From a virus: 49,592 nucleotides of DNA. Below are positions 14,167 to 46,530 of the stretch, piece by piece. The notes beneath the pieces were generated by a model. The model was not told the origin of the DNA. It did no database searches and saw only the letters and a program-made list of their open reading frames with translations. The stretch is taken from IMG/VR virus record IMGVR_UViG_3300028883_000062, positions 1 through 49,592 of that record. One strand, given 5' to 3'. Position 1 is the first letter of the stretch. The number at the start of each line of letters is the position of its first letter. A program made the position numbers and the translations under genes.

Positions 14167-14182
14167 GGTGTGTTTAGTCTCC

Positions 14183-15937: not shown

Positions 15938-16026
15938 CTTTCCTCCGTTCGCCTTTCGGCGTTTGAGCCACCTATCGAGCCACAAGGCAGGCAGATAGCT
16001 GAGACTATAATTTATCCAATTCTTCA

Positions 16027-24044: not shown

Positions 24045-27000
24045 CTATCTCCACTTGCCCCACAGTTTCGCCCCGAACAACCAGACCCTATCGTTATCGT
24101 CGGCCAAGTTATCATAGAATTGTAACTTCATCCCCTGTCCGACATTCAGGTTGGCATCATACGCGATCGACACATGAGCCAGTGTCGTACTCGTCCTGGC
24201 AGTCGTGTTCGTAGTCGCCAGCGAATCACAGATAAACGGACTGCCGGTACCCTTCGAGAGCATAACCCGAACCGAGTCTATTGAGCCGTTGGTCAGATAG
24301 TCAAACGTGATCGAGTCAGCGTCGAAGTCATTGGTTAGGAACATGCCAACGTCAACGTAGTGTGTCTCTGTGCCCTCCCAGGTACTATCGACAAACAGCG
24401 CGAGGGTGTCCTGCGCATATTCAACGTGATACTGGACCCGGGAGCTGTCGGACCACGCATCCTTTCTGCCGTAAACCGTAGTAAACGGCAAGGCTTTCGA
24501 CTTCTGATAGTATTCCTTGACGGTCCCAAGAGTCGAGTACGCTGAATCTGCTTCAGTCGTTGTTGCATGGTACGCATCGATCAGGGCCGTCTTGTCGTCC
24601 AGTCCGATTTTGAACGGAACAGTTGCGCTCCCATCATCATTGACGATCTGGAATTCATCAGACGAGGTACCTGTGATTCTGAGCGTCCACTGTGTCGCGT
24701 CATTCTGAAGGCCAACGGATGAAAAGCCGTTCGTTTTTTGGCTCTGAAGTTGCAGGACAGCATCGCCAGTATCATCAAGTATCCAGGCATCAATGAGCGA
24801 GTGCATGGTGTCCATAGGACCGACTGCCAACTGGCTCACCAAGCCGGTGTCACCAAGCCCTACCTTCAGGTCCACCTCGGCCTGAGTCACATCAGTAACG
24901 ATAGTAACACTATCGCCGGCATCACTGTATGTCATGGTGGCTCCGGTCCCTGATATATTGAACATCGGGCCCGCCTTGTCTCGGACGGCTTCTGCGTTCG
25001 AGGATCCAGCGCTATCAGCGTAGGTGGCCGAGGCCGCCGAAGAATCCGAAACCTTAACGTCGATAGAGAGCGTTACACTATCGCCGCCATCGTCGTAGGT
25101 CATGCTCCCGCCTACACCAGTGATGTTGAACATAGTACCAGCTTTGTCACGGACATTCTCTGCCGCAGACGAGCCACAGGTATCAGCATAATCTGCTGAT
25201 GCCGCGTTGTCTGCTGTTGTAGCCGACGCCGCCGCAGAGTCAGACACCTTTACGTCGATAGCAAGGGTCAGAGAGTCGCCGCCATCATCATAGCCGAGGG
25301 TGCCACCTGTACCTGCTATGGGTAAGGTCGAGCCAAGAGAATCCATGACTTCTTCTACGGAACTGATACCACCACCGGAGCCGCCAGCCGCACCCCATGT
25401 CAACGTACCTGCACCATCGGTTGTTAGCTGGTATCCGTTAGTCCCTGAGTCCAGAGGGTAGTAATTACCGCCTATAACCACCGACCCGAGCATCTTCGTA
25501 ACGCCAGCGTTAGGCCCGCCAACCGTATCAGTCACGGTTGTTGCCATCTTGCATATATCGTGAAACCAGAAGAAGGAATTGTCGCCTTCTACGTGAGTCG
25601 TGCCGGCTTGAGCCCGAAACGTAATCGGCGTATCTATGAGAACCCAGGACACAGAGCTATCGTCGTGTTCCACGAACTCGCCGGTCCCACCGCCACCGCC
25701 AGCAAAATCACCACGGCGGTTTACGATAGAGTCCCACAGGTCCAGCGTGAGGAATTGACCAGTATCGGCCCACCGGATATATCCATCTGTTCCAATTACT
25801 ACCGAATCGAACGCGGATATACCGCCGCCAAGAGCATGAAATTCGTTGGCCGCGATCACTCCGTCAAAGTGAAACACACTATTTTGACCGGCGAATAATG
25901 TCGTATCTTTGTTCCCTGCGACAGTTAGGATTGTATCGTTATCAACAAAGCTGGCGCTACTATCGTCGTGAATGTTAAAGGCGCCACCCGTACCCGCCGC
26001 AGCAATCAGATCAGCCGCTTCCCCCTCGGTGCAAATTGCGGAGTCATACACCAGGCTAATCGTGGGCCCCCAATAGAGCATAGTTTGGACTGACACATAA
26101 TCTACGGCCCCACCGTCAATGCCTGTAAATGTGTCACACTCTATCGTAAAGCCATCCTGTCCCGTCAAGACCGGGTTTGCGTAAGCGCCCGGTGCCGGCT
26201 CAAGCCACATGGACGAGTAAACCGCTCCCCCTTCATACGCCTGGAACAAAAGGCTGTCGGCTCCACTGGTCGCAGTACGGATAGCATTTAGAATGACCGT
26301 ATCGTTGGAAGTTATCGGAAGGTATGTCTCAGCGATGTTGTTGCCCCCCGTGTCAGACCATGCCTGAGCCGCAACAGTAGTCGAATCAGCATGTTCAGCT
26401 CTCGCCGCTCCACCGCTCGCTGAGTCAGAGAGAGTCGCATGGGGAACCGTAATAGTCGTGATGGTGTCCATAATGCCCGGTACGTTATCCTCTATCTGCT
26501 CTTGAGCAATCGCCACTCCCGCCGCCGAGTCAATACCGGATCCTGCCGCCGCCGTAGCATCAGCCGACCAGGTAATAGTAGTGTCGCCACTTGATACGGT
26601 GAGCTTGGGGATATAGCCGCTCGAGGGTGTTCCAACAATCGGGAACCTTGCCAGTTCTTCATACGGGCTGGCCATATAGGAATTGTTTTTGAGTACCGTA
26701 TTCTTGAGGGCAAACGAGTCGATGGCCATGTTGTCTCGCCCATCCCGGTACAAACGCACATCGGTACGCCAGAGGACACCAGTATCAGCTATGCCGCCGG
26801 TCACATACCCGTCAATCTCCCTGTGAGTAAACCACCAATCTTCCGTCCCAGTCGAATCAAGTACGGCCTTCTGGTACCGCTTCGTGTTGTAAAAGGTATT
26901 GTCCCTCACGATACAACTGTCCGGAGCGGGCTCAGTCGTAGATTCGGTTACAGAATCCGCTTTTGGGGATCCGTCGCCGAGCTGAATAGCAGCATACGTT

Positions 27001-28142
27001 ATAGCCTCGTCCGGAGCCGCGGTGTCATAGACTTTGGTATCAAATACTGTGTTAGCGACGATCAATGATTTATCCGATAGCAATTCAACATGGATGCCAT
27101 CGTTGTTGTAGGTCGCCTCGGTGTATTGGTTGCCGGCCATGTTATTCGGACGGTTACAGTCCCACACGATGTTGTGGTCTATGATTGTGTTCGGAGCCGA
27201 CGCGATGTTGATACCGGAGTATCGGACATCGTGAATTCGGTTGTTCGTTATCGTGGTGTGGCGAATATCCTCGGTTGTCAAGGCATCCCTCCAAAGCAGG
27301 ATCCCCTGGCCACGACAGTTCCATATATCGTTATTCTCGATCGTATTGTACCAACTCGTATCCTCAATGCCAGTGAAGTTGAATTGACGGATCGAGATCC
27401 CTGACCCGACATCACCTGAATTGAGATCCCATGAAAGGTACGTATTGTCGCTACCGTAATCGATGTAGCCCGCTTCGTAGCTCTGGCAGTTCCGGATCGT
27501 GTTATACGATGCGTTGCTAATCATTATATTGTCGCGCTGGTTGTGGTGGACCTTGCAGTTCTGGATGATCGTGCGTTGCGTCTGACCGCCGCCAGTAGCC
27601 GGGTTCCCTATAACCTTGATCCCGTACTCGAATCCTGACACCTCAACGTCACTGATAATGACGTGATCGCATTTCATTACCACAATGCCATTAGCTCTGA
27701 ATTGCAGGTTCGCGACAAGGGCGAGCGAATCCGCATCACCGATGATATGCCCGCCTGTCCAGGTCACATACGATACAGAGTCAAACCACAAACCGTTTCG
27801 GCATGAATCATTCTGTGCTTCAATGGGGAAGTAGAGCTGTGCCCCATCTGCACACACAACAGTCAAGCGGCTCGTTATCTTCGTCAGCGTCGAATCAAAG
27901 AGAAATTTCCCCGGTGGTACGTAGACGGTGCCACCTTCGCCGGCAGCAGCGATCGCTAGCCCGAACGCCTGAATAGTTGCCGCGCCACTGGTGGAGTCGT
28001 TCTTCGCTCCGTAGTCCATGATGTTGTGCCACTGTTTCGCTTTGGCGTAGGACTTCGGGCTTTGCGGGGGAGGCGGGCTGCCAGCCATCAGAATAGACGC
28101 TGCCAGGGCGCATACAATAAATACTGCCACAAACCGTTTCAT
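24045..28142 (-). CDS. Exported pectate-lyase-like tail spike
   Basis: This 1365-residue protein has a signal peptide (KRFVAVFIVCALAASILMA) and then a Pectate_lyase_3 type beta-helix at about residues 35-470 (WHNIMDYGAKNDSTSGAATI, EGGTVYVPPGKFLFDS, many N-x-I-x-x-N rungs). Middle and C-terminal parts (about 500-1365) are Gly/Ser/Asp-rich repeats; three copies of a motif with YDDGGDSLTL, YDDGGDSVTL and YSDAGDSVTI lie near 945-1085, with conserved VRDKAGxMFNI after two of them. The C-terminus looks like a beta-sandwich. Likely a tail spike that binds or degrades surface polysaccharide. The signal peptide is unusual for a spike. Confidence 0.85.
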   Translation of the reverse strand: MKRFVAVFIVCALAASILMAGSPPPPQSPKSYAKAKQWHNIMDYGAKNDSTSGAATIQAFGLAIAAAGEGGTVYVPPGKFLFDSTLTKITSRLTVVCADGAQLYFPIEAQNDSCRNGLWFDSVSYVTWTGGHIIGDADSLALVANLQFRANGIVVMKCDHVIISDVEVSGFEYGIKVIGNPATGGGQTQRTIIQNCKVHHNQRDNIMISNASYNTIRNCQSYEAGYIDYGSDNTYLSWDLNSGDVGSGISIRQFNFTGIEDTSWYNTIENNDIWNCRGQGILLWRDALTTEDIRHTTITNNRIHDVRYSGINIASAPNTIIDHNIVWDCNRPNNMAGNQYTEATYNNDGIHVELLSDKSLIVANTVFDTKVYDTAAPDEAITYAAIQLGDGSPKADSVTESTTEPAPDSCIVRDNTFYNTKRYQKAVLDSTGTEDWWFTHREIDGYVTGGIADTGVLWRTDVRLYRDGRDNMAIDSFALKNTVLKNNSYMASPYEELARFPIVGTPSSGYIPKLTVSSGDTTITWSADATAAAGSGIDSAAGVAIAQEQIEDNVPGIMDTITTITVPHATLSDSASGGAARAEHADSTTVAAQAWSDTGGNNIAETYLPITSNDTVILNAIRTATSGADSLLFQAYEGGAVYSSMWLEPAPGAYANPVLTGQDGFTIECDTFTGIDGGAVDYVSVQTMLYWGPTISLVYDSAICTEGEAADLIAAAGTGGAFNIHDDSSASFVDNDTILTVAGNKDTTLFAGQNSVFHFDGVIAANEFHALGGGISAFDSVVIGTDGYIRWADTGQFLTLDLWDSIVNRRGDFAGGGGGTGEFVEHDDSSVSWVLIDTPITFRAQAGTTHVEGDNSFFWFHDICKMATTVTDTVGGPNAGVTKMLGSVVIGGNYYPLDSGTNGYQLTTDGAGTLTWGAAGGSGGGISSVEEVMDSLGSTLPIAGTGGTLGYDDGGDSLTLAIDVKVSDSAAASATTADNAASADYADTCGSSAAENVRDKAGTMFNITGVGGSMTYDDGGDSVTLSIDVKVSDSSAASATYADSAGSSNAEAVRDKAGPMFNISGTGATMTYSDAGDSVTIVTDVTQAEVDLKVGLGDTGLVSQLAVGPMDTMHSLIDAWILDDTGDAVLQLQSQKTNGFSSVGLQNDATQWTLRITGTSSDEFQIVNDDGSATVPFKIGLDDKTALIDAYHATTTEADSAYSTLGTVKEYYQKSKALPFTTVYGRKDAWSDSSRVQYHVEYAQDTLALFVDSTWEGTETHYVDVGMFLTNDFDADSITFDYLTNGSIDSVRVMLSKGTGSPFICDSLATTNTTARTSTTLAHVSIAYDANLNVGQGMKLQFYDNLADDNDRVWLFGAKLWGKWR

Positions 28143-28427: not shown

Positions 28428-31400
28428 CTAATTGCCAATCTGATTCAATAATTGCTCTCTATCTTCTTCAGTTAAAGACCAGAAGAATAGCTGTCTCTGA
28501 GTTGCGCTTGTGCTTTCCCATTTATCGAGAAGTCTATTCCGATATTTCCACAGTCGGTCGCGCATCTGCTTCGGAGTCAGATTAAGATCCTTGTGCATCA
28601 ACATAAGCGCATCGGCAATACGTCCCTCGATAATAGCTGCGTCCACGTCCTCGTAGGTGGCCTGGCGGCCCGCCGCTCTTTGCTTTTTCCATCTATCGAG
28701 CGCTCGTCCGATGTCGCCGCCCGGGTACCCCTTCGAGGTGGGGAAACCAAAATTAGAAACAAGAGCGTTCCAATTACTGCGCTTCGCATCGAGTATGTTG
28801 TCAAGCACCTGAGTAACAGAGATCGGCGCAAAGGTACCTTCCACCCACGTCGTTACTTTGTCGATCGTGCTCTGCGGATCTTTATCTTCATCGATCTTCT
28901 GTCCGTATTCATCTTGCCCCTGAAGCACGCGAAATGTTGTGCTTATCATCGGTGCCACCTTACCATAGAATTTCTGGAAATCGCCCTTTGCGAGTGAATG
29001 AGCCATTCCCGGAACCTCAAATATGCTCTTGAACGGCGGGGCCCAGGCGGTCGTACCGTCTGGATTGTTGTACGGTAGCCTGACCAGGAATTTCATGTCC
29101 TCCGGATTCTGCCACATGAACTTGCCCTCGCCGTCCATGAATTTCGTCATTTGATAATTCCAGATATTCGAGGCGGTATATAGTCCTATCGCACCAGCCA
29201 GATACCAGCGATATTGTGTAGCGATCGGGTGAAGCGGATCCATGTGCATCTTTCGCCTGAGACTGTTCGGGGCAAGCGACTTGGTTGTCTCGTAGGCTAT
29301 GCGAATGTGAGATTCCTGCCACGTGGGAGAGATGAGGCCATACTGCCACGCCTTTCTCACTCCCTGACCGTACCAGAGTTTGATCGCTGTCTTGTTGCTC
29401 TCGAGCAGATTCATCTTATAGTCTGCGCCGGAGAACAAACCGTCTGCCATCTTCACGGCATCCCGATATGCGAGCTCCATGTTAAGGCCCTGTTCTCGGT
29501 ACTTTGGAGCGATTCGATCAAAGACCTTGTGTGCCATGTAGGTTTTCATCCCTGGGTGCAATACATCAAAGATGATATGTGACATCTTCCAAACCGGCCA
29601 CGTGATAATGTTGGCGGGAGTGTTATTGAATCGCAGCATGTCAACGGGTTTGAAGCCAATATCCGAATAAGCGTCAACCTTCAGTCCGTTTCGCATGAGT
29701 CCATGTGTGACCTCAGTAGGATGCTCGAGTATCTTCAGGCCCTTCGGTACCATAGTCAACGGATTCACGCGATTCGCGATTGCCTGGAACCCGAGCTGTA
29801 TCGGATGGAAGAAGCCAGCCAGCTTCGCGCCTTTAGAGAGATACATGAATCGACCGAAATTGGTAATCTGCGGTGATTTGTGATAGTTCTCCCACCACGG
29901 CATGATCTCTCTGAACACTCCAACCGGACCCTTCATTACTATCGTTTGTCCGTTATGGCCCTTAAACGTGATCGGTCGCTGTAAGAAGATGTTTTCCGTG
30001 TACTCGTAAAGATCCTGCAAACCAGCCTCGGTGATCTTATTCCACGGCTCGATAACGTTAGCATCCTCGAGCTTTACGCTCCCGGTATATCGATCCTTCC
30101 GGGGTATCTCGATGCCGCCGCCAATCTTCGTGCTGTGCAGCTCCGCGTAAAGGCGACGTGAGGCATTGGCAAGTTCCAGGTTGCGGTAGCCATTACCAAC
30201 GAGGGTGCCGAGATTGAGTGTCGCGGGAATCTTCCCTGCGGCCATCGCCTGTTCCATCGTTTCATATTTGCGTCGCATGAGCGCGGGCTGATTCTTTGCG
30301 AATTGACCGAATTGCGGATTGATAGGCTTCCCTGACACCGGATCCTGCCAGATATGGCGTAAATACACATGACCAGGTGGGCGCGTTTGCTTGTCGATTA
30401 AGCCTAATTGTAACCCGTAGTCCTCGAATTGTTTTGAGAATTCTCGGAACATGGTCACCACGCCCTTTTCTTTTGGTGTGAGGTTTCTCCAATACCTCGA
30501 GTTCGGGCCCTGCTCCATAGCGTGCGCCAGAGTGAGTTGCCGCTCCTGGGGTATCTTGAAATTCTCGAATTCTTTTGAAAGCAAGTATTCAATAGCGCCG
30601 GCATCGAGTACACGTTTGCGGTGACTCCACATCGACTTGACCGCGGCCTCAACATTGGACTGGATCTCTATTCGTTCCGGCGACTTCGCCAGTACCGCGT
30701 CAACGTACTCTTTTACATACTTGGCGTTGTTGTAGACTGTCCGGGCGAGCTGATGATAGGCTTCAGGCGTTCCGAGGGCGCCGAGGGAGACTGAGCCGTC
30801 GCCCTTCTCCACCATGTCAAAGAGCGAGCCCTGATTTTCAACAAGATCCCTGACACCTTCCTTCAGCTTTTCGATCTTGGCATCGATACGCTTAATTTCT
30901 TCGACCGACTCAACCTTTTTCCGGAGCTCTCGCAGTTCATCGATCTGTTTGACAATCCAGCCGGTGTCCTGCCTGGATCTAGTACCCTCGTTGATCGGGG
31001 CTTTCGTAAATTTGAGCGGAGCGTTCTTGTCGAAGGCTATGTCTGTTACCTGGCGCTCGATTTTCGCCTCAAACTCACCGGCTTTGAGCTTCCACATGTC
31101 CTGCTCTCGATAGAGAACATCGAATAGCTGTTTCTCATGGTAATTCGTGATCTGCGGGAAGTCTTTTCTCAGGTTTCCTACCATCTTGGCCTTGATCTCG
31201 AAGTACGGCACATTGTCGCGGAGCGCTTCAGGCTGTTTCAGTATGTCTACAAATATACCTTTGGGGTCCAGATAGGTATAGGACTCGAGCTTCGGTACTC
31301 GATCTTTGCCGAACGAGTCTGTCAACTGCTGCTTTGTTTTCTTCTGGTCTTTGGCGATCCTGAAGGCTTCGATGTCCTCCCCGATCGTTTCTCGGGTCGC

Positions 31401-34400
31401 GCTACGGTTCGCCTCAACTTTTGCGTGGTAGACCGCTTCTTCGAGTGTGCCCTCGAAGTATTTTACCGGGACTTCATCGATCCCTATGCGTTTCAGGGCT
31501 TCATATCGGCTATGTCCAGAGAGCAGGTATGTCTGTCCGTCCTTCGGATCTTTCCAGACAATAAGGTCGTCCAGCTTCCCGGGGTCGAAATCATTGACTA
31601 TTCGCTCTACTGACTCCTCAGAGAATTCCTGCTTGCGGTTCTGGAACCGTTCGGGATCCAGCTTTATGTCGGATCGCTTCAGGATGATTCGTTCTTTAGC
31701 GAATGTTTTACTGGCGACAGGTTTGGTCCCACCGTCAGCCTTTCCGGATTCAGGTTCGGGTTGAACATCGGCCGGTTTGGGTTCTTCAGCCGGTTTCTCG
31801 GCGGGCTTGGGTGCTTCCTCTTTAGGAGCTGGCTTTTCTTCAGCCGCAGGCTTTTCTTCGGCAGGTTTCGATCGCTCAACGGGTTTAGCCTCCTTTGTCA
31901 CTGTCTCGGGCGGTTTGGTGACTACTTTCAGTTCTCCCTTATTCGCTCCCTCGAGCATCTTCACTTCGTAGAACGTCTTTCCGGAAATCTCCTGCGAGTT
32001 ACCAGTGTACTCTGCCTTGTCGCCCTTCACATAGACCTCGTTTGGCCCTGTCTGGAATTCCTCTGCAATCGGCGTAGGCTCCATCACATCTTCAACCTTC
32101 GGGCGTTCTTTCGGCTTCGGCTTCGGCGCTGCCGGTGTAGGTTCGACCACTTCAACATTCTCGACACTCCGCTTGGCATCCTCGAGGGCTTCCAGATCTC
32201 GAAGTAGGCGAGCCTGCAAGTTGTCTACTGTTGCCTGTAACGCCACCTGTTCGGGCTTAGAATACGCGACCATCACTTCTTCCAGCTCAGCGATATTATT
32301 TTCGATTGTTGGAATCGTTTCCTCGAGCTTGCGGATCTGCTCATTTCGACGATCGAGTTCGCGCTGTGACACCTTTTCGGGCGGCCCTGTCGGTTTTTTG
32401 GGCTCAGGAGCGCGCTCGGGAGCCATAGCGGGCGTTTCGGGCGGCGCCACGTCTGTCGGGATAGCTTCGGCCTTCGGCGGCTTCTTGGCCTTCCCAGGGG
32501 CCTCTGGCGGGGTCTGCGGTGTCGGCGGCTTCGGAGCCGGGGCGACTGGTTCCGGAGGCTCGGGCCATTGGTCGGGCGGTAGATCTTCGCGCGCTTCTTT
32601 CAGGCGACCGTTTATCTCTGCTATTTCGAGCTGATTGGCTCCTTCCGACTGCTTCAAGGTCTGTGCCCGGGCCTCTAAATGCTGTACGCGGCGTTTTTTG
32701 TCGCCGTATTGCAGTTCATCGAGCTTGACTTGCTCTTTCGCATCGAGCTCTCGTTCCAGTTTGCGAAGCTGTTCGGCGTAGACGTGCGGGACCAACTCAC
32801 CATAGAGCAGCCCTTCCTTTGCGCGCCTCGAGGCACCTGCAAGGTCTGTCGCTTCCATGTCCGGACGCATCCGGAGGATCTCAGCATCGATGGCTTTCGG
32901 ATCCATACGCGAAATCATGTCGCGCAGATCCTTCATAGCCACATCAGGCGGCGGGACAATGCCCTGCTCCTGTCGGGCCAGTTCATCGAGTAATAGGCGC
33001 TTGCCGGCTGGCGACTTCCGAATTTCCTCGAGGCTCTTTTGGGCCTCGGCCTCGTTCTTGAGTTCCCGTTCGATAGCCTTTGCCGACTGTTCAGCCGGTC
33101 CGAGCTTCTTCGGTGGCTGTTCCGGATAAGACCGATTGGCCTCCTGCATGAGCTGTTCTTGCCGCTTCAGATCTTCCTTCAGCAATCGAGCACCTTCAGG
33201 TGATTGGCGTAGCTGTGTTTGCCTGGCCTCGGCATCCAACATCGCCCTGGCTGATTGCTTCGCGGGTCCGGCTGGCGGTTTAGGCGGGTTTAAGGCCTCC
33301 TGTTGGCGTAAGTCCTCAGCGAGCAAGCGGGCACCTTCCGGTGACTGTCGTAATCTTTGTTCCCGGGCCTCGTACTCGGCGATAGCTGCGGCTGATTCCT
33401 CGGCAGACTTTTCTACTGCGCGCCGTGACTGTTCCTCTAGTTCGATCTCCCGGGCCTTGTATTCAGCTTCCCGGGCGGCCTGGTCAACCTTGTCCTTGCG
33501 TGCCTGTTCTTTGGCTGCATCCATAGCACGCTGTTCTTCGGCGAACCGTTGAAGCTCCTGCTCTGCTACTGAGTAACTTTTCTTTTTGCCCCGACTCAGC
33601 TTTGCCGCTCCACCCATAGCCATTCCCGCAAGCATGGCTACACCAAATGGGTTCTTCAACAACTCTTTTTGAGCATTCTCAATTTGTTTTGTGTTCGCAT
33701 ATTCCAGACGAAAGCCTTTGGTAATAGAAAATTCTGGATCAACACCTGCGGCTTCCAGTAATAGCGTTGTTTCTTCGAGAGGAAACTTCAACATGCCAAC
33801 AGCAAATTCATACGGGTTCTGGATAAAGCTCGCCATCAGCTCGGGAGCGATGCGGATAGCACCAGAAATGAAGTTCCGCGCAAAAATAGTTCCATCAGAA
33901 AGCGGGTATTCCCGGTCCTCATACTGGCCGGTTTCCTCGTTCCAGACCGATACCGTTTCGGTGGCGCCAGGCTCAATAACACCTAGCCCGAGTTCCTTAA
34001 ACCCCTCGTCAACTAGTTCGGTTAGCTGTTCCTTCGGCAGAATCGGCTTCAGAGGGTGTGTCTCGCCCACACCTTCAGCAACGTATTTATCCAGTTTTTT
34101 CAGGTTGTACATGGCGGCCTGATAAAACTGATCGATAAAGGGATCAGCTAGATCTACCGCACCTTTCCTGATGGCCTCCCCGTACAGGTCGCGCAACATA
34201 GAAAATATGCCGTTACTCTCGGAGCTCTCGGCTTGAGTCAATAACTCCGGAGGCAGAATACCGACTTCTACTGCCTGCTCTATCTGCTTCTGCTGTTGCG
34301 GATTTAGCGCTTGCGGCCCGCGCGTCTGCACCGTTTTGACCATAGCCCGGAATTCCGGTGTATTCGCATACGTGTGCTCTGGCTCCACCGGAGGAAGGGG

Positions 34401-34499
34401 CGGCCCTACTTGCTTCGCCGGATCCTTGATGTCACGTGCGAGCTGGCGCTCTTTGGCCAGGTCTGATTCCGCGTAGCTCTTATGAATCCGCTCGTACAT
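28428..34499 (-). CDS. Giant internal virion (polyvalent) protein with ParB domain
   Basis: This 2023-residue protein is probably ejected with the DNA. Order of regions: helical N-terminus with a hydrophobic stretch at about 278-297; coiled-coil and Glu/Pro-rich region (300-930) holding three repeats QSPEGARLL, QSPEGARLL and KSPAGKRLL at about 383, 433 and 492; a ParB-like nuclease domain at about 935-1060 (ILKRSDIKLDPERFQNRKQE, LSGHSRYEALKRIGIDEVP); and a long C-terminal part like the large polyvalent-protein associated domains. No signal peptide. Polyvalent proteins combine injection and DNA-processing or defence-counter functions. The position (after nozzle, before fibres) matches T7 internal virion genes. 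The ATG directly follows the previous stop. Confidence 0.75.
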   Translation of the reverse strand: MYERIHKSYAESDLAKERQLARDIKDPAKQVGPPLPPVEPEHTYANTPEFRAMVKTVQTRGPQALNPQQQKQIEQAVEVGILPPELLTQAESSESNGIFSMLRDLYGEAIRKGAVDLADPFIDQFYQAAMYNLKKLDKYVAEGVGETHPLKPILPKEQLTELVDEGFKELGLGVIEPGATETVSVWNEETGQYEDREYPLSDGTIFARNFISGAIRIAPELMASFIQNPYEFAVGMLKFPLEETTLLLEAAGVDPEFSITKGFRLEYANTKQIENAQKELLKNPFGVAMLAGMAMGGAAKLSRGKKKSYSVAEQELQRFAEEQRAMDAAKEQARKDKVDQAAREAEYKAREIELEEQSRRAVEKSAEESAAAIAEYEAREQRLRQSPEGARLLAEDLRQQEALNPPKPPAGPAKQSARAMLDAEARQTQLRQSPEGARLLKEDLKRQEQLMQEANRSYPEQPPKKLGPAEQSAKAIERELKNEAEAQKSLEEIRKSPAGKRLLLDELARQEQGIVPPPDVAMKDLRDMISRMDPKAIDAEILRMRPDMEATDLAGASRRAKEGLLYGELVPHVYAEQLRKLERELDAKEQVKLDELQYGDKKRRVQHLEARAQTLKQSEGANQLEIAEINGRLKEAREDLPPDQWPEPPEPVAPAPKPPTPQTPPEAPGKAKKPPKAEAIPTDVAPPETPAMAPERAPEPKKPTGPPEKVSQRELDRRNEQIRKLEETIPTIENNIAELEEVMVAYSKPEQVALQATVDNLQARLLRDLEALEDAKRSVENVEVVEPTPAAPKPKPKERPKVEDVMEPTPIAEEFQTGPNEVYVKGDKAEYTGNSQEISGKTFYEVKMLEGANKGELKVVTKPPETVTKEAKPVERSKPAEEKPAAEEKPAPKEEAPKPAEKPAEEPKPADVQPEPESGKADGGTKPVASKTFAKERIILKRSDIKLDPERFQNRKQEFSEESVERIVNDFDPGKLDDLIVWKDPKDGQTYLLSGHSRYEALKRIGIDEVPVKYFEGTLEEAVYHAKVEANRSATRETIGEDIEAFRIAKDQKKTKQQLTDSFGKDRVPKLESYTYLDPKGIFVDILKQPEALRDNVPYFEIKAKMVGNLRKDFPQITNYHEKQLFDVLYREQDMWKLKAGEFEAKIERQVTDIAFDKNAPLKFTKAPINEGTRSRQDTGWIVKQIDELRELRKKVESVEEIKRIDAKIEKLKEGVRDLVENQGSLFDMVEKGDGSVSLGALGTPEAYHQLARTVYNNAKYVKEYVDAVLAKSPERIEIQSNVEAAVKSMWSHRKRVLDAGAIEYLLSKEFENFKIPQERQLTLAHAMEQGPNSRYWRNLTPKEKGVVTMFREFSKQFEDYGLQLGLIDKQTRPPGHVYLRHIWQDPVSGKPINPQFGQFAKNQPALMRRKYETMEQAMAAGKIPATLNLGTLVGNGYRNLELANASRRLYAELHSTKIGGGIEIPRKDRYTGSVKLEDANVIEPWNKITEAGLQDLYEYTENIFLQRPITFKGHNGQTIVMKGPVGVFREIMPWWENYHKSPQITNFGRFMYLSKGAKLAGFFHPIQLGFQAIANRVNPLTMVPKGLKILEHPTEVTHGLMRNGLKVDAYSDIGFKPVDMLRFNNTPANIITWPVWKMSHIIFDVLHPGMKTYMAHKVFDRIAPKYREQGLNMELAYRDAVKMADGLFSGADYKMNLLESNKTAIKLWYGQGVRKAWQYGLISPTWQESHIRIAYETTKSLAPNSLRRKMHMDPLHPIATQYRWYLAGAIGLYTASNIWNYQMTKFMDGEGKFMWQNPEDMKFLVRLPYNNPDGTTAWAPPFKSIFEVPGMAHSLAKGDFQKFYGKVAPMISTTFRVLQGQDEYGQKIDEDKDPQSTIDKVTTWVEGTFAPISVTQVLDNILDAKRSNWNALVSNFGFPTSKGYPGGDIGRALDRWKKQRAAGRQATYEDVDAAIIEGRIADALMLMHKDLNLTPKQMRDRLWKYRNRLLDKWESTSATQRQLFFWSLTEEDREQLLNQIGN

Positions 34500-34500
34500 A

Positions 34501-35649
34501 TTACCGTACCTGCTTCAGAAGTTTCTGCATGTCCTTGACACCAAAATTCGGGAGTTGCTTTAATTCTTCGGCCACAGCCGCCCATGTGTTCGTGCCGATC
34601 TCATTCTCGGGGATCCTCAAAAGATCATTCAGGATCCCGAGGACAAAGTTTTTATCGGCTGGTTGAAGGTTTAGGTTCTGCGTCGCCTCAAGCGCTTCGA
34701 GTTGTTCTATCCGAGGTCCATAAGCCTCTATGCCCTGTTGGAAGATCACACCCTCTTTGATCTGTCCGGTTTGCTTGTTATAATAGGTATCTAAAAATTT
34801 GCGCTGACCATCGGTAATCTCAAAACCTTTCGCATCTTTCGCGTTATCCTGCATCCAGCCAGCAACCGCATCTTCTACGGACTGCAACGGACCAAAGACA
34901 GCCCCTCGTTTCACATCGTACATTGATTGCCCGATGTCCGCGACCGTCTTATAGTTCACTTCTTTATGGTCGGCGATCCAGTTGATTTCATTCAGAGAAT
35001 AGCCCCGGTCCAGTAATGCACCTCTCTGCATCGGTCCCAGGTCAGCGATTACGCCACCTTTCTGCAACACGCTAAGAGCACCATCGACCATTATATCTTC
35101 AGCAGCCCTTATCCGAAACGCCGGTACATTCGACTGCAAAAACTCACGCGCTGTCTGTGCCCCCCACGCCTTATTGAGCGCCACACTCAGCTTAATGGCA
35201 TCGGGGGTCATGGTCGTTGCGCCTTTTGCCTTCTGGTATAGCGAATCGATCTCCCTGATAGTTTTCCGCTCTTGCCTGTTCCCCGACAGATAATTAAAGA
35301 CCCGATTCACATCACCACCAGCGCCCATGAAGCCTTTGACAAAATCCCGTTCTTCCGGATCGTCAATGTCGTTTAAGAAGTTCTCGACGGCCATCATAGA
35401 ACCAACGCCTTCGGTCTGAAGGGCGCTCATGGGAGGTGTCATACCGGCGCTCGCAAGGTTGACGTATGACTGAGCAGAAACCGGATCCACCCCCGGATAC
35501 AGGTTTAGAAGGTCTGTCACCGAGGCCTCGCGGCGCTTCTTCAATTCGTTCTGTTTCTGCTTTTGCTGGCGCTCCTGCAAAAGAAACGGCATGATCGATT
35601 GTAACGACTGATTGGCCGCGTTCAGGAATCCTACACCTTTTTTCGGCAT
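34501..35649 (-). CDS. Putative internal virion protein
   Basis: This 382-residue protein is helical and charged, without a signal peptide (LLQERQQKQKQNELKKRREA and several Gln/Lys/Arg-rich helices). No family recognised. Placement between the nozzle block and the giant polyvalent protein is the place of T7-like internal virion proteins, so DNA-ejection or core function is inferred. TAGGAG precedes the ATG. Confidence 0.6.
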   Translation of the reverse strand: MPKKGVGFLNAANQSLQSIMPFLLQERQQKQKQNELKKRREASVTDLLNLYPGVDPVSAQSYVNLASAGMTPPMSALQTEGVGSMMAVENFLNDIDDPEERDFVKGFMGAGGDVNRVFNYLSGNRQERKTIREIDSLYQKAKGATTMTPDAIKLSVALNKAWGAQTAREFLQSNVPAFRIRAAEDIMVDGALSVLQKGGVIADLGPMQRGALLDRGYSLNEINWIADHKEVNYKTVADIGQSMYDVKRGAVFGPLQSVEDAVAGWMQDNAKDAKGFEITDGQRKFLDTYYNKQTGQIKEGVIFQQGIEAYGPRIEQLEALEATQNLNLQPADKNFVLGILNDLLRIPENEIGTNTWAAVAEELKQLPNFGVKDMQKLLKQVR

Positions 35650-35659
35650 GACTTAGCTC

Positions 35660-36118
35660 CTATAAGGCCAGTGGTGCATAGCCAACCGCAGTCCCGATAA
35701 GCTCCTCAAGGAAGCTCGGCTGTGCTTCTTCGGCTCTCAGCACGCCCCACATCTGCAAGGCTCTCTGAAGTTGTTGTTCTTTGATCTGGGCGCGTGTCAT
35801 AGCCCCCTGTTGTCGCATACCTTCAAACTGAAGGCGGCCCTGTGTTGCAACCGACGCAAGCTGGCCGGCGACTGGTGCGAGCACGTCCCGATACATCGCT
35901 CCGGGGGCCTCTCCCGAGCTGTATATACCACGGCTTGCCAGGTCAGCATTGAACCCTTCCATCGCAAACGGTACTTGCGATAAGATCTGCTCAAAGCGGG
36001 CATTGATCGCATCCTCGAAAGGATCAAGTTCAGGGACAAGACCACTCAGGTTCGAGTTGTCGCGCATCAGTAGCCGTTGCATGTCCGTACTGGTTAGCGA
36101 CGTGTTGTAGCCACTCAT
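35660..36118 (-). CDS. Small putative internal virion protein
   Basis: This 152-residue protein is helical in the middle (RGIYSSGEAPGAMYRDVLAP, MTRAQIKEQQLQRALQMWGV) and has no signal peptide. The C-terminus is mildly hydrophobic (EELIGTAVGYAPLAL). It lies in the internal virion protein block; the function is not known. Confidence 0.55.
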   Translation of the reverse strand: MSGYNTSLTSTDMQRLLMRDNSNLSGLVPELDPFEDAINARFEQILSQVPFAMEGFNADLASRGIYSSGEAPGAMYRDVLAPVAGQLASVATQGRLQFEGMRQQGAMTRAQIKEQQLQRALQMWGVLRAEEAQPSFLEELIGTAVGYAPLAL

Positions 36119-36511
36119 CTATTCACCCTCCACACGGTAATTGATCGTGGCCGTATCGCTCCGCACCGAGGACCGGACGACAAAGCGTGTGCCACTTCGA
36201 GGAATAACCGTGTACGTGTTGGTGTTATTTGTGTCGAGACTCCATGCGAGCCCTCGATAAGAAGTGCTGTCCAGAAAGGACACGTCCTGCTTCTGGTCAA
36301 CGGTCGACGTATTTAGCGTAACAGAGCCCCAACCATACGACAGCTTGACGGTTCCTGCGACTTGGTGCCAGCCCTTTGCTGTCTCTGACTGGTTGATCGG
36401 TCTACCGTCAGGGCCGTAGATCGTTTTGATTTTCCCTTCAACTTGTTCGTCCTGGGCGAACGTGAACGCCGCAACCGAACAGAGTAACAGCACCAAGAGA
36501 AGATGCTTCAT
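36119..36511 (-). CDS. Small exported tail-region protein
   Basis: This 130-residue protein has a clear signal peptide (MKHLLLVLLLCSVAAFTFA, cleaved before QDEQ) and a beta-rich mature part (VKLSYGWGSVTLNTSTVDQK, TRFVVRSSVRSDTATINYRV). Its ATG overlaps the nozzle gene's stop (TAATG) and follows GGGAGG. It may be a tail accessory protein; no family is recognised. Confidence 0.6.
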   Translation of the reverse strand: MKHLLLVLLLCSVAAFTFAQDEQVEGKIKTIYGPDGRPINQSETAKGWHQVAGTVKLSYGWGSVTLNTSTVDQKQDVSFLDSTSYRGLAWSLDTNNTNTYTVIPRSGTRFVVRSSVRSDTATINYRVEGE

Positions 36512-39240
36512 TACTGCCTCCCCTGATCCCACGGCACGAAGCCAATGTTATAGCCCTTAATAGTATAGTCGCCTCGCCCATTATCAGTGATTTTAACTGA
36601 AAGGTTGTCGACTATGCGATCGATCGGAACGCGATCAACATTGTGATCGGTGAAGTCTGGCACGAATGTATGTGTAAGAACCGCCACCGGAGTCGATTGC
36701 GGCCCGTAGTTTTCATAGAAGGTCAATGTCACCGTATCGGCCTCTCCGGATCCGTACAAGTCGAAATAGAGCGCCTTGACGCGCCCCTGGCTTTCGAAGA
36801 AGTATTTAGACTGGTATGTCGCTATGATAGTATCTTTGCCATCGAGGGTATCAGTCGCACCCCCGATCCACTGGTACATCGTATCGTTCGTGCCGGCCAG
36901 AACCCACTGCTCCGATCGCACGTCTGCCCTGGCGGTATCGATGTCGAACAAAAGCGCATCACGAAACCCAAAATCGTAGCAGCTCCAATGAGGTCTGATT
37001 TCCTCGGAATAGACGTAGGTTTTCCAACTACTGTCAGTAATGGGTAATGACAGCCAGTACTGGCCATTAACGACCGCTCCAACCGCCCGTTGTCGCCTGT
37101 CCTCGAGGGAGTCAATAGTCAGGTCGATCGGCAAGGACAGCCGTTGCTGGAAGTTACCGAATTTGTATGCTCCCATGTGATCGAGAAAGTATAGTCCGGT
37201 TCGTCCTTCGGCCAGACTAGCGGGAGCCGCGAGCCCCACAGAATTACTCACAGGCTGCAAGTTGTACTGATACAGATTGGCGCCTGTCAGAGAGTAAATG
37301 CTATTCTGCCTGAAGATCAGTAGTGTATTGCTGACCGGCCACAAAGCATTGATCCAGTCGCCGGTTTGCGTCGGGAGCAATAAAAACTTGTCCTCGTCCC
37401 ACGTCCCAGGCCGATTGAAGTCCGAATAATAGAGGCGGTTCGGGTAGGTCTGGTATCCTGCGGCATAAATCCGCGAATTGAAATAAGCGATTGTTCTCGG
37501 CTGAAACTCAATAGCAGAATCATCATAGCAGAACATCACCGGGTCGTCGATCAGGTTCGTATCGTCGCACCATACCTCCCCGGGAATGGAATCGTAGGGC
37601 ATCGAGTCACTATACGATGTCTGCCCCGGTTCCAGTGTATCGAGAATGACCCAGTTCTTGAGGTACGCCTGGTCAACGCTGCTCTCCACCTTGATTGTGT
37701 CGTAGGTCGGGTAATTGGGAGAGCCATAGGTGAAGTCACCCCCGGGCTCGAGGTGAAAGATCTCAAAGTAATTCCCGGCGTAGTTAGTCGAACAAACCAC
37801 TTCCTCTTGCAGCTCAACGGCGGCATTAAGATCCTGCACCCAATACTTAATCAGGCTATCAATCTCAGCCTCGGCGCTACTCGATGGGTAATAACCGACG
37901 GTCGTGGAGTTGACGGTATATTGGTGCTCCTGAAAACCATAGCTCGGCTTCTTTGTGATCGTTACCCTGACCACCTTACCCTGTGAGTTACTAGTGAATT
38001 CGCCGAAGCATCCCCGTAATAGGATCTTCCGGGCGATCGATTGCGTGTCGATCGGGACCGGAATACTATCGAGGTCATACCCGACGCGATCAGCTCCGAA
38101 TAAACGCATCTGATTTCGATAGAGCGCGCGACAGGCGGCGGGCCCGGCATAACTGCGTCTGCCGGCTGAATCCTCGAATACCACCGAGTAGCCGATCTTG
38201 ACGCATTGTGTATCAGTGATTCCCTGAATGTTGCTGAACACGCCATAGGGCGAGCTCGCAGCGTTCCATGAGGCATAAATACACCCGGGAGGGTACGGTG
38301 TTGGGTCTGCTGCCGCAGAATCACAGTCACCATAGGCGCAGTTGAAGTAATCGCCCCAATCATACGTTCGCGCGGAATCGATAACGGCGTAGCCGGTGTC
38401 AACGAATGTGCCAAGATTCACGCCGATCATGTTGATTGCGGTTATCGGGTAGTATGAGCCGCCGTCAACACTGCGATAGATCAGGGCCTTACTGTTTGTC
38501 TCGGAATGAGTGTACGCCGGGTTCGGTCCGATCCGATCAACGTAGATTGCGCTCCCGTTGACATAGAGGGGCCAGGTCGGGAGCGACAGGTTGGTGGTGT
38601 CGCCTCCGGTCGTGATCCATGCGTATTTGTACGTGTACGTGCCAAAGAGCACGCCACCTGAGTCGATAGGGATAGATCTAGGCTGATTGGGTCCGAGCGG
38701 TCGCACCGGTGCGGTTGTGGAGCCGTTATAGGTCATAAGCTCGGATCCGTATAGCCCAACAACAAGGTCGTTATTTACGGTAATAGATTGCAGATTAGCG
38801 CCGACTACGGGGTTCACGCTCGGGAGGTACATTAGCAACTCAGGAGTCAGTGTAGTAGTACAGGCGGGAATGGCGGGGTCGGCAAGCCGCATGGTCGCGA
38901 GGCCACTGTCTGCGATCCCGTTCGATGTGATTCCGGATAACTCGCGCAACACTAGTAGGCGCTTCCCATCTACCTGCTGATAGGCTATTAGTCCATGAGC
39001 TCGCACACCCGCCACTGTGTCGGCATAATAGTAGCGCAACCCCGGTCGGCGCTTCAGGCCGCCTTTAGTAACTCGATAGTTATCGAGTACCAGAGCTTGA
39101 TTGTCCTGCATCAATGCGTTCGTCAGTGAATTGACCAGGCCACCACTGAAATCAAAAACGCTTTTCTCTTGGATCCCCTGTCCCATCGCTGGCAGAGCAA
39201 GGATGAACAGAAGGAGTAATATAGCCGCTATCTTTTTCAT
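36511..39240 (-). CDS. Tail nozzle / tubular protein B-like, with signal peptide
   Basis: This 909-residue protein resembles the T7 gp12-type or phage-stabilisation nozzle: FSGGLVNSLTNALMQDNQAL, then VTKGGLKRRPGLRYY, a beta-propeller-like middle and a domain with RIYAAGYQTYPNRLYYSDFN and FRQNSIYSLTG. Its mature part is preceded by a clear signal peptide (MKKIAAILLLLFILALPAMG, cleaved before QGIQ), which is unexpected for this family. It has 11 cysteines, including a CAYGDCDS pair. The ATG overlaps the previous stop (ATGA). Role: distal tail tube forming the exit for DNA. Confidence 0.8.
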   Translation of the reverse strand: MKKIAAILLLLFILALPAMGQGIQEKSVFDFSGGLVNSLTNALMQDNQALVLDNYRVTKGGLKRRPGLRYYYADTVAGVRAHGLIAYQQVDGKRLLVLRELSGITSNGIADSGLATMRLADPAIPACTTTLTPELLMYLPSVNPVVGANLQSITVNNDLVVGLYGSELMTYNGSTTAPVRPLGPNQPRSIPIDSGGVLFGTYTYKYAWITTGGDTTNLSLPTWPLYVNGSAIYVDRIGPNPAYTHSETNSKALIYRSVDGGSYYPITAINMIGVNLGTFVDTGYAVIDSARTYDWGDYFNCAYGDCDSAAADPTPYPPGCIYASWNAASSPYGVFSNIQGITDTQCVKIGYSVVFEDSAGRRSYAGPAACRALYRNQMRLFGADRVGYDLDSIPVPIDTQSIARKILLRGCFGEFTSNSQGKVVRVTITKKPSYGFQEHQYTVNSTTVGYYPSSSAEAEIDSLIKYWVQDLNAAVELQEEVVCSTNYAGNYFEIFHLEPGGDFTYGSPNYPTYDTIKVESSVDQAYLKNWVILDTLEPGQTSYSDSMPYDSIPGEVWCDDTNLIDDPVMFCYDDSAIEFQPRTIAYFNSRIYAAGYQTYPNRLYYSDFNRPGTWDEDKFLLLPTQTGDWINALWPVSNTLLIFRQNSIYSLTGANLYQYNLQPVSNSVGLAAPASLAEGRTGLYFLDHMGAYKFGNFQQRLSLPIDLTIDSLEDRRQRAVGAVVNGQYWLSLPITDSSWKTYVYSEEIRPHWSCYDFGFRDALLFDIDTARADVRSEQWVLAGTNDTMYQWIGGATDTLDGKDTIIATYQSKYFFESQGRVKALYFDLYGSGEADTVTLTFYENYGPQSTPVAVLTHTFVPDFTDHNVDRVPIDRIVDNLSVKITDNGRGDYTIKGYNIGFVPWDQGRQ

Positions 39241-42156: not shown

Positions 42157-43353
42157 CTAGAATTTCAGGCCTTTGACAACGCCGAATCGTTCCTCACCAA
42201 AGAACTCCCAACCGAACTCACCAAAGATGTGTCCGGCTTCCTGGTCGATTCCTTGAGCCTTGCGATCCAACGGCACATAGCCGATTTCACGGTTCTTGGT
42301 TCCGATCAGAGGCCGATAGTCGATACCAGTGGTCGGCAGGAGGAACATGTACCCCGCGAGGTTCATTTCCATCCCAAGCAGATCACACTCGAGCAGGGCA
42401 TAACGCCCGGCTCCCGGCACCACGATTGCGCTGATGTCGATACCGTCTGCGGTCAAATTCTGATCGTACTGCACTTTCGGGAAAGCCATCGTGTTGATCG
42501 TCTGAATGATTTCATTCGACGTAACGATAGCCCCCGGGCCTTTGTAATACTTGCGCCATTCGGCGATAATATCCCAAAGGTCCATCCGGGTAAGAAAACC
42601 ATCGACCGAGAACACGTTTGTCGTGATGTAGTCCTCGAGGCCCGTTGCGGCGTGCATCGGGTACGTGTAGGTCGAGGTATCTGAAACACCGCCAGAAAAG
42701 AGGGCCGCCGCTTCGAGCTGTGAGGACGACTGTTCCCAGGCATCCGTAAGCGAGGTAGCGAAGGCATCTCCTTCGACGGTTTTGACTGCGGCCTTCGTTC
42801 CGGTCATTTCAACCGGGAAGTCGCAGATCGAGGTATTGAATGACACATAGCCCGGTTCCTGCTGCGCGCCCTTTGTCATGGTCGCACCTTCAGGCGGGTT
42901 AGGTGACAGGATTACACACCAGTCGCCATTCTTCAAGAGCGGCGTTCCCGATGTGCCGAAGTTGCGGTCTACCGCAGCCGACACATGAGCGCTGGCGAAA
43001 TCGGCCTTAAACAGAATGACTTCGCCCGAGGGCGTTCTCACTCTGGAATACTGCGCGAGTCGCTTTGCACCGTTGTTGAAAGTAAGCGAGCTGGTACCCT
43101 GGGAGCTTTCGGTCGCCCCGGTAAACTGCACCATATTGGGAAGGTACGATTTCTCGAGGTGGCCAAATTTCTGATCCACAGTCGGACGATAGCGAGCGTT
43201 GCGCATGAGCCACGTCAAGAGCTGGTGCTCCATCGGATTGTAGCGCCACATTTCGCGACCGATTTCAAACGGCGTATTCGGGTCAATCGAAATAGCCGTG
43301 TAGTCTGCGGTATCAGAAACGCCCAGGAGCTGCGTTACTTGATTCGGTAACAT
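42157..43353 (-). CDS. Major capsid protein
   Basis: This 398-residue protein is placed after the scaffold and before the adaptor, and its length fits an HK97-fold capsid protein. It has a helix near the N-terminus (NPMEHQLLTWLMRNARYRPT), an extended beta loop, and helices typical of the A domain (GFLTRMDLWDIIAEWRKYYK, IVTSNEIIQTINTM). The call depends mainly on gene order and length. There is no signal peptide. GGGAGT precedes the ATG. Confidence 0.8.
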   Translation of the reverse strand: MLPNQVTQLLGVSDTADYTAISIDPNTPFEIGREMWRYNPMEHQLLTWLMRNARYRPTVDQKFGHLEKSYLPNMVQFTGATESSQGTSSLTFNNGAKRLAQYSRVRTPSGEVILFKADFASAHVSAAVDRNFGTSGTPLLKNGDWCVILSPNPPEGATMTKGAQQEPGYVSFNTSICDFPVEMTGTKAAVKTVEGDAFATSLTDAWEQSSSQLEAAALFSGGVSDTSTYTYPMHAATGLEDYITTNVFSVDGFLTRMDLWDIIAEWRKYYKGPGAIVTSNEIIQTINTMAFPKVQYDQNLTADGIDISAIVVPGAGRYALLECDLLGMEMNLAGYMFLLPTTGIDYRPLIGTKNREIGYVPLDRKAQGIDQEAGHIFGEFGWEFFGEERFGVVKGLKF

Positions 43354-43384: not shown

Positions 43385-44269
43385 CTAAATGCCTTGCCCT
43401 TTCTGGTACATGAAGGCGAGGGCCTGGCCTAGCTTCTGTCTTGCTTCCTGTTGTTTGGTCGGATCAGTATGAGCAGTAGCACCACTGCTCATGCCGGCCT
43501 CCTGCATTTTCTTGGCCATATCAGCCTCGGCCTTTTCATAACCGCGCTTATATTCGGCCTCGCCAACTTCAGCAATACGCTGTCCCCGCACCGCGAAATG
43601 CAACAGCTCGTTGAAGGGCATAACTTTTGCCATGACCTTCATGTTGGTTAGTTTGCGATCTTCTGCGAGATCGTCCCAATCCTGGTGTCGTTGCTGCAAC
43701 TGCGTTTCGAGGGCCATATCTGCGAACGGAGCGATTTTGTTGTCGATCATCTTCTCCAAGTTGACTGACTGATTCGCACCCGCCGCTTCCTCTAAGAGCT
43801 CTCGAGCTTTTTCGGGGTCGGTCGACATCATATTAAGTAGCTGTGCAGGGTCAAGTTGGGGCTCTTTCGGATTGTCACCGGCTGCTTTCAGGTCAACCTT
43901 GAACTGCTTGGCCAGGTTCGCGATCATTTCTTTGGGATCAGAAGCCAGCGCTTCCTGCAATTTCTTGTAGTCGCTGAGTTTGTTCCCTTGATCGCCCACC
44001 TTCGCCTTCAATGCCTCATGCGCCTTCTTCAGCTCGTCTGATGCTTTGGAGGTTTCGGCGTGCTTCTTGGCCATTTCATTAGCCCATGATTTCGCTTCGT
44101 TCAAGTCGGCGAATTCGGGAATACCGGGCTCGGGCTGTCTGTCTGATGGCGTGGCAGGAGCTTTGTCACTCCCTGGCGTAGCAGACGGAGCAGCCGGGGG
44201 CGCGGCGCCTTCAGGGGCTAAGTCACCCCCTCCACCATCGCCCGCATCGTAGTATCGGTATAGCCACAT
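43385..44269 (-). CDS. Scaffolding protein
   Basis: This 294-residue protein is highly charged and helical, with an Ala/Pro/Gly-rich acidic N-terminus and long coiled-coil stretches (SKASDELKKAHEALKAKVGD, YKKLQEALASDPKEMIANLA). The composition and the place between portal and MCP are typical of scaffolding proteins that shape the procapsid and then leave. The C-terminus is helical (RQKLGQALAFMYQKG), which often binds the capsid shell. Confidence 0.85.
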   Translation of the reverse strand: MWLYRYYDAGDGGGGDLAPEGAAPPAAPSATPGSDKAPATPSDRQPEPGIPEFADLNEAKSWANEMAKKHAETSKASDELKKAHEALKAKVGDQGNKLSDYKKLQEALASDPKEMIANLAKQFKVDLKAAGDNPKEPQLDPAQLLNMMSTDPEKARELLEEAAGANQSVNLEKMIDNKIAPFADMALETQLQQRHQDWDDLAEDRKLTNMKVMAKVMPFNELLHFAVRGQRIAEVGEAEYKRGYEKAEADMAKKMQEAGMSSGATAHTDPTKQQEARQKLGQALAFMYQKGQGI

Positions 44270-44271: not shown

Positions 44272-44520
44272 TTAATGTTTCTCCATCTTTGAATGTTTAA
44301 GGGTTTTCTCGAATATCTCTATCTGTTCTTTTAGGCTTTTCCATTTCAGCCACTTTTCCCGCAGGAGCGTGGAAGTCGGATCCTCTAACGCACGAAGATC
44401 CTCGAGCGCTATCTGAGCGCGTTCATTGAGTCGTCGCATCCAGTCCTTGAAGATTGGATTCTTTTTCAACTGCTCAACGTATTCCGGTTCCGGATCGAAT
44501 TTAGACACCACCGGCTTCAT
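44272..44520 (-). CDS. Small hypothetical protein between portal and scaffold
   Basis: This 82-residue helical basic protein (LKKNPIFKDWMRRLNERAQI) is not recognised. It overlaps the 3' end of the portal gene by 20 bases and has GAGAGGA upstream. Small genes at this site are common in T7-like and related podoviruses. Confidence 0.6.
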   Translation of the reverse strand: MKPVVSKFDPEPEYVEQLKKNPIFKDWMRRLNERAQIALEDLRALEDPTSTLLREKWLKWKSLKEQIEIFEKTLKHSKMEKH

Positions 44521-46528: not shown

Positions 46529-46530
46529 AA

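Follow-up and report, generated by a model that had tools for sequence, protein, structure and literature searches.

The giant gene and its ParB module

The IMG/VR virus record IMGVR_UViG_3300028883_000062, 49,592 bases long, classed as linear and with a GC content of about 0.50–0.57, was analysed over its whole length and is called the window below. It carries a giant gene, P0001, whose product is a predicted ejection protein of 2023 amino acids (aa) with an embedded ParB-type module. The gene and the parts of the module are listed here; A8 is the nine-row family alignment of the module, used as a profile, numbers beginning with L are loci, and SSIP-1 is Salisaeta icosahedral phage 1.

28428..34499, minus strand: whole gene of the 2023-aa predicted ejection protein P0001 (open frame, ATG start)
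30813..31670, minus strand: ParB module, residues 944–1229 (matches to SSIP-1 gp43, Persicobacter ArdC-type proteins, L008 and L009)
31392..31697, minus strand: ParB N-domain, the nucleotide-pocket domain, residues 935–1036 (A8, ParB/Noc profile match at 1e-9, fold match)
31038..31391, minus strand: helix-turn-helix or DNA-binding-domain part, residues 1037–1154 (VIA alignments to 7nfu and 6t1f)
30810..31001, minus strand: long helical hairpin predicted to follow the DNA-binding part, residues 1167–1230 (secondary structure of the model)

The open frame spans exactly 28428–34499 on the minus strand, and the same coordinates on the plus strand are full of stops. It starts 1 base past the stop of the upstream gene and overlaps the start of a downstream gene of 93 aa. 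A sequence-only reading of this DNA had proposed a 2023-residue frame here without stating a strand; the frame is borne out, on the minus strand, and the motif quoted in that reading, GHSRYEALKRIG, begins at residue 995.

Sequence evidence for a ParB fold

From the single sequence, the ParB call would be weak: the Pfam model ParB_N matches residues 947–1012 below threshold (E 0.012, 16.1 bits against a cut-off of 26.3), two ParB families of PHROGs match at 9e-5 and 4e-4, and ParB chains in the PDB reach only 0.05–0.09. Relatives are more informative. Residues 944–1229 match SSIP-1 gp43 in a 2.3-Gb collection at 2e-13 (28% over 286 residues), and gp43 itself lies over the Pfam ParB_N cut-off (27.7 vs 26.3 bits). 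Overlapping stretches of the module match ArdC-type proteins of Persicobacter plasmids in four records (3e-16 to 1e-11). An alignment of the ParB module, A1, was needed for finding further relatives: when viral contigs were scanned directly with the whole P0001, the terminase or the C-terminal half, no close ones came up. With A1, six relatives were found among 53 stretches of viral contigs (SSIP-1 recurring as one of the six) and seven among 263 stretches of cellular genome contigs, and the module matched L008 at 6e-60 and L009 at 8e-53.

The A8 profile matches solved structures of ParB (7bnk, 1.1e-9), Noc (3e-9 to 1e-8) and Spo0J (6sdk, 1.5e-7), and weakly those of KorB (0.02) and sulfiredoxin (0.03); at the sequence-profile level, the match to the solved ParBs extends only to profile positions ~141–156. 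A search of nine records with A8 recovered eight, among them the phage P-SCSP1u at 8e-16, and missed Ruegeria phage 45A6. With the module of L011 as the query, 21 phage records were found, 17 of which are Prochlorococcus phages. Because of the gp43 match, the A8 profile and the predicted-fold match described below, the ParB match of P0001 is judged not to be chance, and the ParB identity of its module is near certain. The ParB-like domain of the sequence-only reading thus stands, on a family profile (1e-9 to 1e-7) and a predicted fold (Z 12); the profile search proposed there as a check recovers the ParB fold with A8, not with the single sequence above the Pfam cut-off.

The type of the domain is another matter. 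Membership in the DdrB-ParB family, the type described for polyvalent proteins, was dropped since the Pfam model PF18763 matched none of six records at E <= 1. A PHROGs match labelled portal (phrog_21, 3e-5) was likewise dropped, and P0001 is not called a portal because this match, at profile positions 1025–1100 only, is restricted to the ParB part. An AbrB_C match (0.2) was judged to be chance. The phrog_21 family, under its name of portal protein, carries a ParB module in its C-terminal part (profile positions 1011–1326; match to L011 at 6e-65), and its label may be misleading or a sign of portal–ParB fusions.

Predicted structure of the module

An AlphaFold model of the ParB module, built from A8, has a predicted local distance difference test score (pLDDT) of 82 and a predicted template modelling score of 0.55. 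It superposes on Noc 7nfu with Z 12.4 (root-mean-square deviation (rmsd) 5.2, 196 residues aligned) and on Caulobacter ParB 6t1f with Z 12.2 (rmsd 5.4, 183 residues), so that the AlphaFold check suggested beforehand came out in favour of the domain. The VIA structural alignments to Noc, ParB and KorB cover model residues 1–220, that is, the N-domain and the DNA-binding domain; since these matches span both domains, the region is a two-domain module of the ParB/Noc type and not a sulfiredoxin-like core alone. The N-domain by itself matches 7bm8 and 6ryk with Z 10.8 and 10.2 at 3.0 Å. Many further structural matches have an rmsd above 10, probably from a different placement of the two domains relative to each other. 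The pLDDT is low at the start and the end of the helical hairpin at residues 1167–1230. In the helix-turn-helix part, most relatives in A8 have a segment of the GKN...NLSYLNPKG type.

The claim of a polyvalent-type ParB domain therefore holds in part: the kinship with polyvalent proteins is supported (see below), while the domain is of the N-domain plus helix-turn-helix type seen in ParB, Noc and KorB, and not DdrB-ParB.

The nucleotide pocket

In Caulobacter ParB, residue roles have been described for a GERR motif with the catalytic E102 and R103, and for E135, N136 and R139; R103 and R139 are needed for binding of cytidine triphosphate (CTP) (Jalal et al., PMC8367383, available portion). On a mapping based on alignment and not on a bound structure, Q58, R60, R104 and N136 have unchanged counterparts in all nine rows of A8 (Q953, R955, R998 and N1031 in P0001), and the N-domain of P0001 accordingly reads FQNR at 952–955 and GHSR at 995–998. 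The other positions are changed: E102 is H in 9/9 rows, R103 is S or H in 9/9, E135 is A, S or D in 9/9 and never E, and R139 is R in three of the nine rows and A in P0001. The resulting GHxR signature occurs in 20/20 module-bearing proteins checked, a count that leaves out locus L007 (same record as L010), and no ENxxR motif is present in residues 941–1070 of P0001. The replacement of the hydrolytic E102 by H, with other CTP contacts lost, makes canonical CTP hydrolysis by this module unlikely, and canonical CTP binding appears doubtful from the same residues.

How such a pocket would be used allows more than one answer. Iyer et al. proposed nuclease activity for polyvalent ParB domains, and non-partition ParB/Srx domains are described as nucleases or NTPases (PMC5512222, available portion). 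By analogy, P0001 could be an injected nickase or nuclease, regulated by nucleoside triphosphates, that cuts host, rival or phage DNA early, and the departure from the partition-type GERR to GHxR in every protein counted would fit. Its module, however, is built on the plan of ParB, Noc and KorB, DNA-binding domain included, does not match DdrB-ParB and gave no identified nuclease motif; a cutting role seems unlikely.

Loss of the hydrolysis residues would also suit a module that is a structural relic, a DNA-binding or oligomerisation part which would help to build the internal core or to arrange DNA within the head and have no role after ejection; the long charged linker of P0001 fits such a structural role. 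Against this improbable alternative stand the invariant Q, R, R and N of the pocket, which suggest that ligand binding is kept, and the occurrence of the module in ArdC-type proteins of cellular genomes and plasmids.

A second, canonical ParB is encoded in the window at 4370–5968 on the plus strand (ParB_N at 1e-21 plus a helix-turn-helix). Its GERR motif reads GARR, without the hydrolytic Glu, and ENMQR is kept.

The structural operon

The P0001 gene sits in a minus-strand late block, in an operon running from capsid to spike; its context is as follows.

46531..48309, minus strand: terminase large subunit (39% to the contig of L009, 2e-115; PHROGs terminase 3e-6, and 4e-22 in the relative)
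44501..46537, minus strand: portal or head-tail connector (36%, 2e-107 to L023 3191–4675, itself matching a PHROGs connector family at 3.6e-8)
43385..44269, minus strand: scaffold-position protein (27% to the relative, 5e-15; scaffold role by position only)
42157..43353, minus strand: major capsid protein (41% to the relative, itself matching PHROGs major head protein at 2.9e-6)
36511..39240, minus strand: 909-aa nozzle-position tail protein (32%, 3e-112 to an 882-aa relative; nozzle role by position only)
34501..36532, minus strand: three genes (137, 152 and 382 aa) at the positions of T7 gp13, gp14 and gp15 (51% and 42% identity for the first two)
24045..28142, minus strand: tail spike, downstream of P0001 (Pfam Beta_helix 6e-12; PHROGs tail spike 8e-13)

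The order in the window, namely portal, scaffold position, capsid, small genes, nozzle position, three small genes, giant and spike, is that of T7-like podophages, the scaffold, adaptor and nozzle roles being assigned by position. The syntenic contig used for comparison, IMG/VR 3300005077_000043 (L009, L022 and L023), encodes a giant protein of 2109 aa. A 269-aa protein is 59% identical between window and contig, the 882-aa relative of the nozzle-position protein matches PHROGs virion-protein families (1.7e-16 and 1.6e-6), and the 382-aa neighbour of P0001 is barely alignable to its relative (0.03). Among solved structures, no convincing match came up for the neighbours of 909, 227 and 152 aa. 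It is very likely that P0001 has a gp16-like gene position, and the internal-virion position proposed from the letters is upheld by this synteny.

P0001 might instead act early in infection or in regulation and be no virion protein, with a gene that just happens to be placed among late ones. The presence of P0001 in virions is a prediction from genes, and a separate canonical ParB is found in the plus-strand block of the window. This is nevertheless a highly improbable case: the late-block operon is tight, the gene has the same place in the L009 contig, P-SCSP1u has a T7-like order as well, and SSIP-1 gp43 is labelled structural.

Giant proteins with ParB domains in other phages

In the Prochlorococcus podophage P-SCSP1u (OM416779.1, L025, 12654–20345), an unannotated 2563-aa hypothetical protein, ULF50148.1, bears the ParB module at the place of T7 gp16. 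The order there is portal, scaffold, capsid, gp11, gp12, proteins of 166, 217 and 953 aa, then the 2563-aa module protein and a protein of 1079 aa. The giant matches P0001 at 9e-9 and A8 with 97.4% probability. Its module is of an FQFK...GHNR subtype, unlike that of P0001 (FQNR, GHSR); it has a zincin-like HESFH motif at residue 1204, whereas P0001 has no HExxH, and similarity between the two C-terminal halves is undetectable. A C-terminal stretch of the P-SCSP1u giant looks like an ADP-ribosyltransferase by eye; Pfam finds neither this domain nor a zincin in it. Internal virion proteins of such Prochlorococcus podophages have been proposed by size and position only, and their genes could not be annotated (PMC9860041, available portion). 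Capsid, portal, adaptor, nozzle and fibre are described in PMC10575957, in the accessible text of which the word ParB does not occur, and the ejectosome of P-SCSP1u is visible and not resolved according to the part of PMC11440229 at hand.

The L009 protein resembles P0001 over its full length, with a similar N-terminus, ParB module, C-terminal half and syntenic operon (identity is 35% for the module and about 23% for the C-terminal half), and is uncharacterised too. SSIP-1, an icosahedral membrane-containing phage (by a title in the reference list of PMC4958249), encodes the giant gp43 with the same ParB module; only its GenBank note calls it a structural protein. Unlike P0001, gp43 has a methyltransferase domain, and the two show no convincing match outside the module region.

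There are more distant cases. DdrB-like proteins, such as phage P1 DdrB and gp12 of the Helicobacter pylori podophage HPy1R, have in common with P0001 a ParB-superfamily domain inside a giant virion-associated protein; P0001 differs in its ParB/Noc-like N-domain plus DNA-binding domain and gives no PF18763 match. HPy1R gp12, a “Ddrb-parb domain-containing protein” of 199.56 kDa, was detected in particles by mass spectrometry with 64 unique peptides (PMC9319048, available portion). DLP3 gp2, a ParB-like protein found in virion mass spectrometry, adds little weight, as its authors warn of non-structural and host proteins among those detected (PMC7326821, in the part available). With Noc, chromosomal ParB and KorB, P0001 shares the fold of N-domain plus DNA-binding domain and the kept positions Q58, R60, R104 and N136, and differs in the changed E102, R103 and E135 positions and in the embedding of the module in a giant protein of a virion operon. 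With T7 gp16 and podophage ejection proteins it shares gene position and large size; sequence similarity to solved chains was not detected, and no transglycosylase domain was found in it.

Open-licence literature gave no relevant report of ParB in ejection, internal virion or internal core proteins, which does not prove absence elsewhere. The class of giant ParB-bearing virion proteins is already known; new are the module type, the hydrolysis-poor signature and the recurrence at the gp16 position.

Polyvalent company of the module

At least one further domain of the polyvalent repertoire lies over the Pfam curated cut-off in 8/14 module-bearing relatives scanned, in support of the proposed kinship with polyvalent proteins. 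These are a methylase in SSIP-1 gp43 and L014, RelA_SpoT in L011, ArdC-N and MPTase in L003 and L004, the same two with LPD3 in L018, and LPD3 with MuF_C in L008. The giant of Ruegeria phage 45A6 (L026, KT820175.1, 5811–16894) combines a ParB-like module with a ResIII helicase, GNAT, a methylase and LPD38. The remaining six of the 14 (L009, L012, L013, L015, L016 and P-SCSP1u) have no further polyvalent domain, and in P0001, with its late-gene context, the ParB module is the only domain recognised by Pfam and PHROGs. Polyvalent proteins in the sense of Iyer et al. (2017) join several effector or LPD domains in a single phage protein encoded near late virion genes, and an MPTase zincin or LPD38 is frequent in them, though not obligatory. 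In the single strain Persicobacter sp. JZB09 (L003, L005), several plasmid-like replicons carry ParB-module genes that closely resemble one another; the open reading frame listed for L005 is short and begins inside the ParB part.

The module is fused to ArdC-N and MPTase in Persicobacter and Capnocytophaga, and in SSIP-1 and Ruegeria phage 45A6 it shares a protein with methylase or helicase domains. This raises the idea that P0001 counters restriction or another defence in cis, on the genome that is entering, like the Dar proteins of phage P1 or ArdC. P0001 itself has neither such domains nor HExxH, and co-occurrence is guilt by association; this role is very unlikely, and counter-defence by P0001 is speculation.

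N-terminus, linker and C-terminal half

Outside the module, P0001 contains the following parts.

34242..34388, minus strand: N-terminal segment, residues 38–86, common to the syntenic relative L009 (tblastn 40% identity, 3e-5; blastp 1e-7)
31680..33602, minus strand: charged linker or coiled-coil region rich in Pro, Ala, Glu and Lys, residues 300–940 (composition per 100 residues)
32955..33374, minus strand: imperfect linker repeats, residues ~376–515 (self-comparison; spacing about 47 and 63 residues)
28431..30782, minus strand: C-terminal half, residues 1240–2023, mostly helical (alignment A2)
29499..30485, minus strand: C-terminal segment 1339–1667, shared with the ParB plus RelA/SpoT protein L011 (22% identity, 4e-8)
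29040..29828, minus strand: C-terminal segment 1558–1820, shared with L009 (23% identity, 2e-5)

AlphaFold on a three-row alignment of the C-terminal half gave an unusable model (pLDDT 35), mostly helical at that low confidence. The three-row profile found only chance-level matches in the PDB, with no T7 gp16 or solved ejection protein among them; tblastn against phages gave only chance matches at E up to 10, and scans with A2 or with the L009 and L011 proteins added no new relatives. Neither P0001 nor L009 has a transmembrane segment at a threshold mean of 1.4 over 19 residues. P0001 lacks the HExxH zincin motif of MPTase and, in a dedicated model test, LPD38, and Pfam and PHROGs found no transglycosylase domain in it. 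The large C-terminal region that had been likened to polyvalent-protein domains is thus present at 1240–2023 and conserved in two relatives, while no named polyvalent-associated domain was matched by it in the Pfam scan and the LPD38 test. Judging from position and conservation only, the most likely task of this half is in packaging, in ejection or in forming a channel.

A possible role at the start of infection

P0001 is likely a virion ejection protein of the polyvalent kind, made by a short-tailed phage with a T7-like gene order. It appears to be built like a polyvalent protein, with a conserved N-terminus, a long charged linker, the ParB module and a large helical C-terminal half; it would be carried inside the head and leave it together with the genome. 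It probably passes into the cell along with the phage DNA and takes hold of DNA as infection begins. Its ParB module would then grip DNA, most likely the incoming phage genome, with a grip that may be influenced by nucleotide and would do without canonical CTP hydrolysis, so as to act as an early DNA-binding or entry-assisting factor and not as a partition protein. Taken whole, the statement that P0001 is an ejection protein at the T7 gp16 position whose ParB/Noc-type module grips DNA after entry is evenly poised between right and wrong, and the gripping function is its weakest step.

Several points weigh against it. The virion presence of P0001 is predicted, the phage being known only from environmental DNA, and only one syntenic relative of the operon was found, the L009 contig. 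In the PDB profile search, neither T7 gp16 nor an ejection protein of solved structure matched P0001 in sequence, and the C-terminal half and the 382-aa neighbour are poorly conserved. HPy1R gp12 is an analogy only because its ParB domain is of the DdrB type, a different family. The CTP-binding residues R103 and R139 of Caulobacter ParB are missing from P0001, which may therefore take a nucleotide other than CTP or bind none at all. Finally, the window contains no canonical parS with <=3 mismatches (0 sites vs 1.25 expected by chance), and its 57 palindromes of 14 bp, with one mismatched pair allowed, include none recurring three times; DNA binding may therefore be non-specific or absent.

A bolder form of the DNA-gripping ejection protein is an injected one-shot clamp: the module would bind nucleotide, close on the incoming genome and stay shut, working as an entry ratchet or as a shield in cis. 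Such a clamp would not reopen because the hydrolytic glutamate is a histidine (GHxR) in every relative seen. It is a rather improbable proposal, under which a ParB-type clamp (N-domain plus DNA-binding domain) would be packed by several podophage lineages as part of the ejection protein encoded at the gp16 position. If the module does close on entering DNA, the ParB fold would have an unexpected use, and there would be a way into the question of how podophage genomes are drawn in or shielded. The DNA-gripping reading in general suggests, in a form open to testing, what a giant ejection protein may do beyond channel formation. The module also links proteins annotated separately or not at all: an unannotated giant of marine cyanopodophages, a protein labelled structural in an icosahedral membrane phage, polyvalent proteins of the ArdC type and the protein of this environmental phage.

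Other features of the window

No tRNA genes were found in the window. A 183-aa protein at 19615–20166 on the minus strand matches minor tail and tail lysin families at 5e-11 and is conserved in the relative on the L009 contig; it is possibly a cell-wall enzyme of the phage. A block of recombination type at 12835–16872, also on the minus strand, encodes an SbcC-like ATPase, a phrog_3657 protein and an exonuclease.

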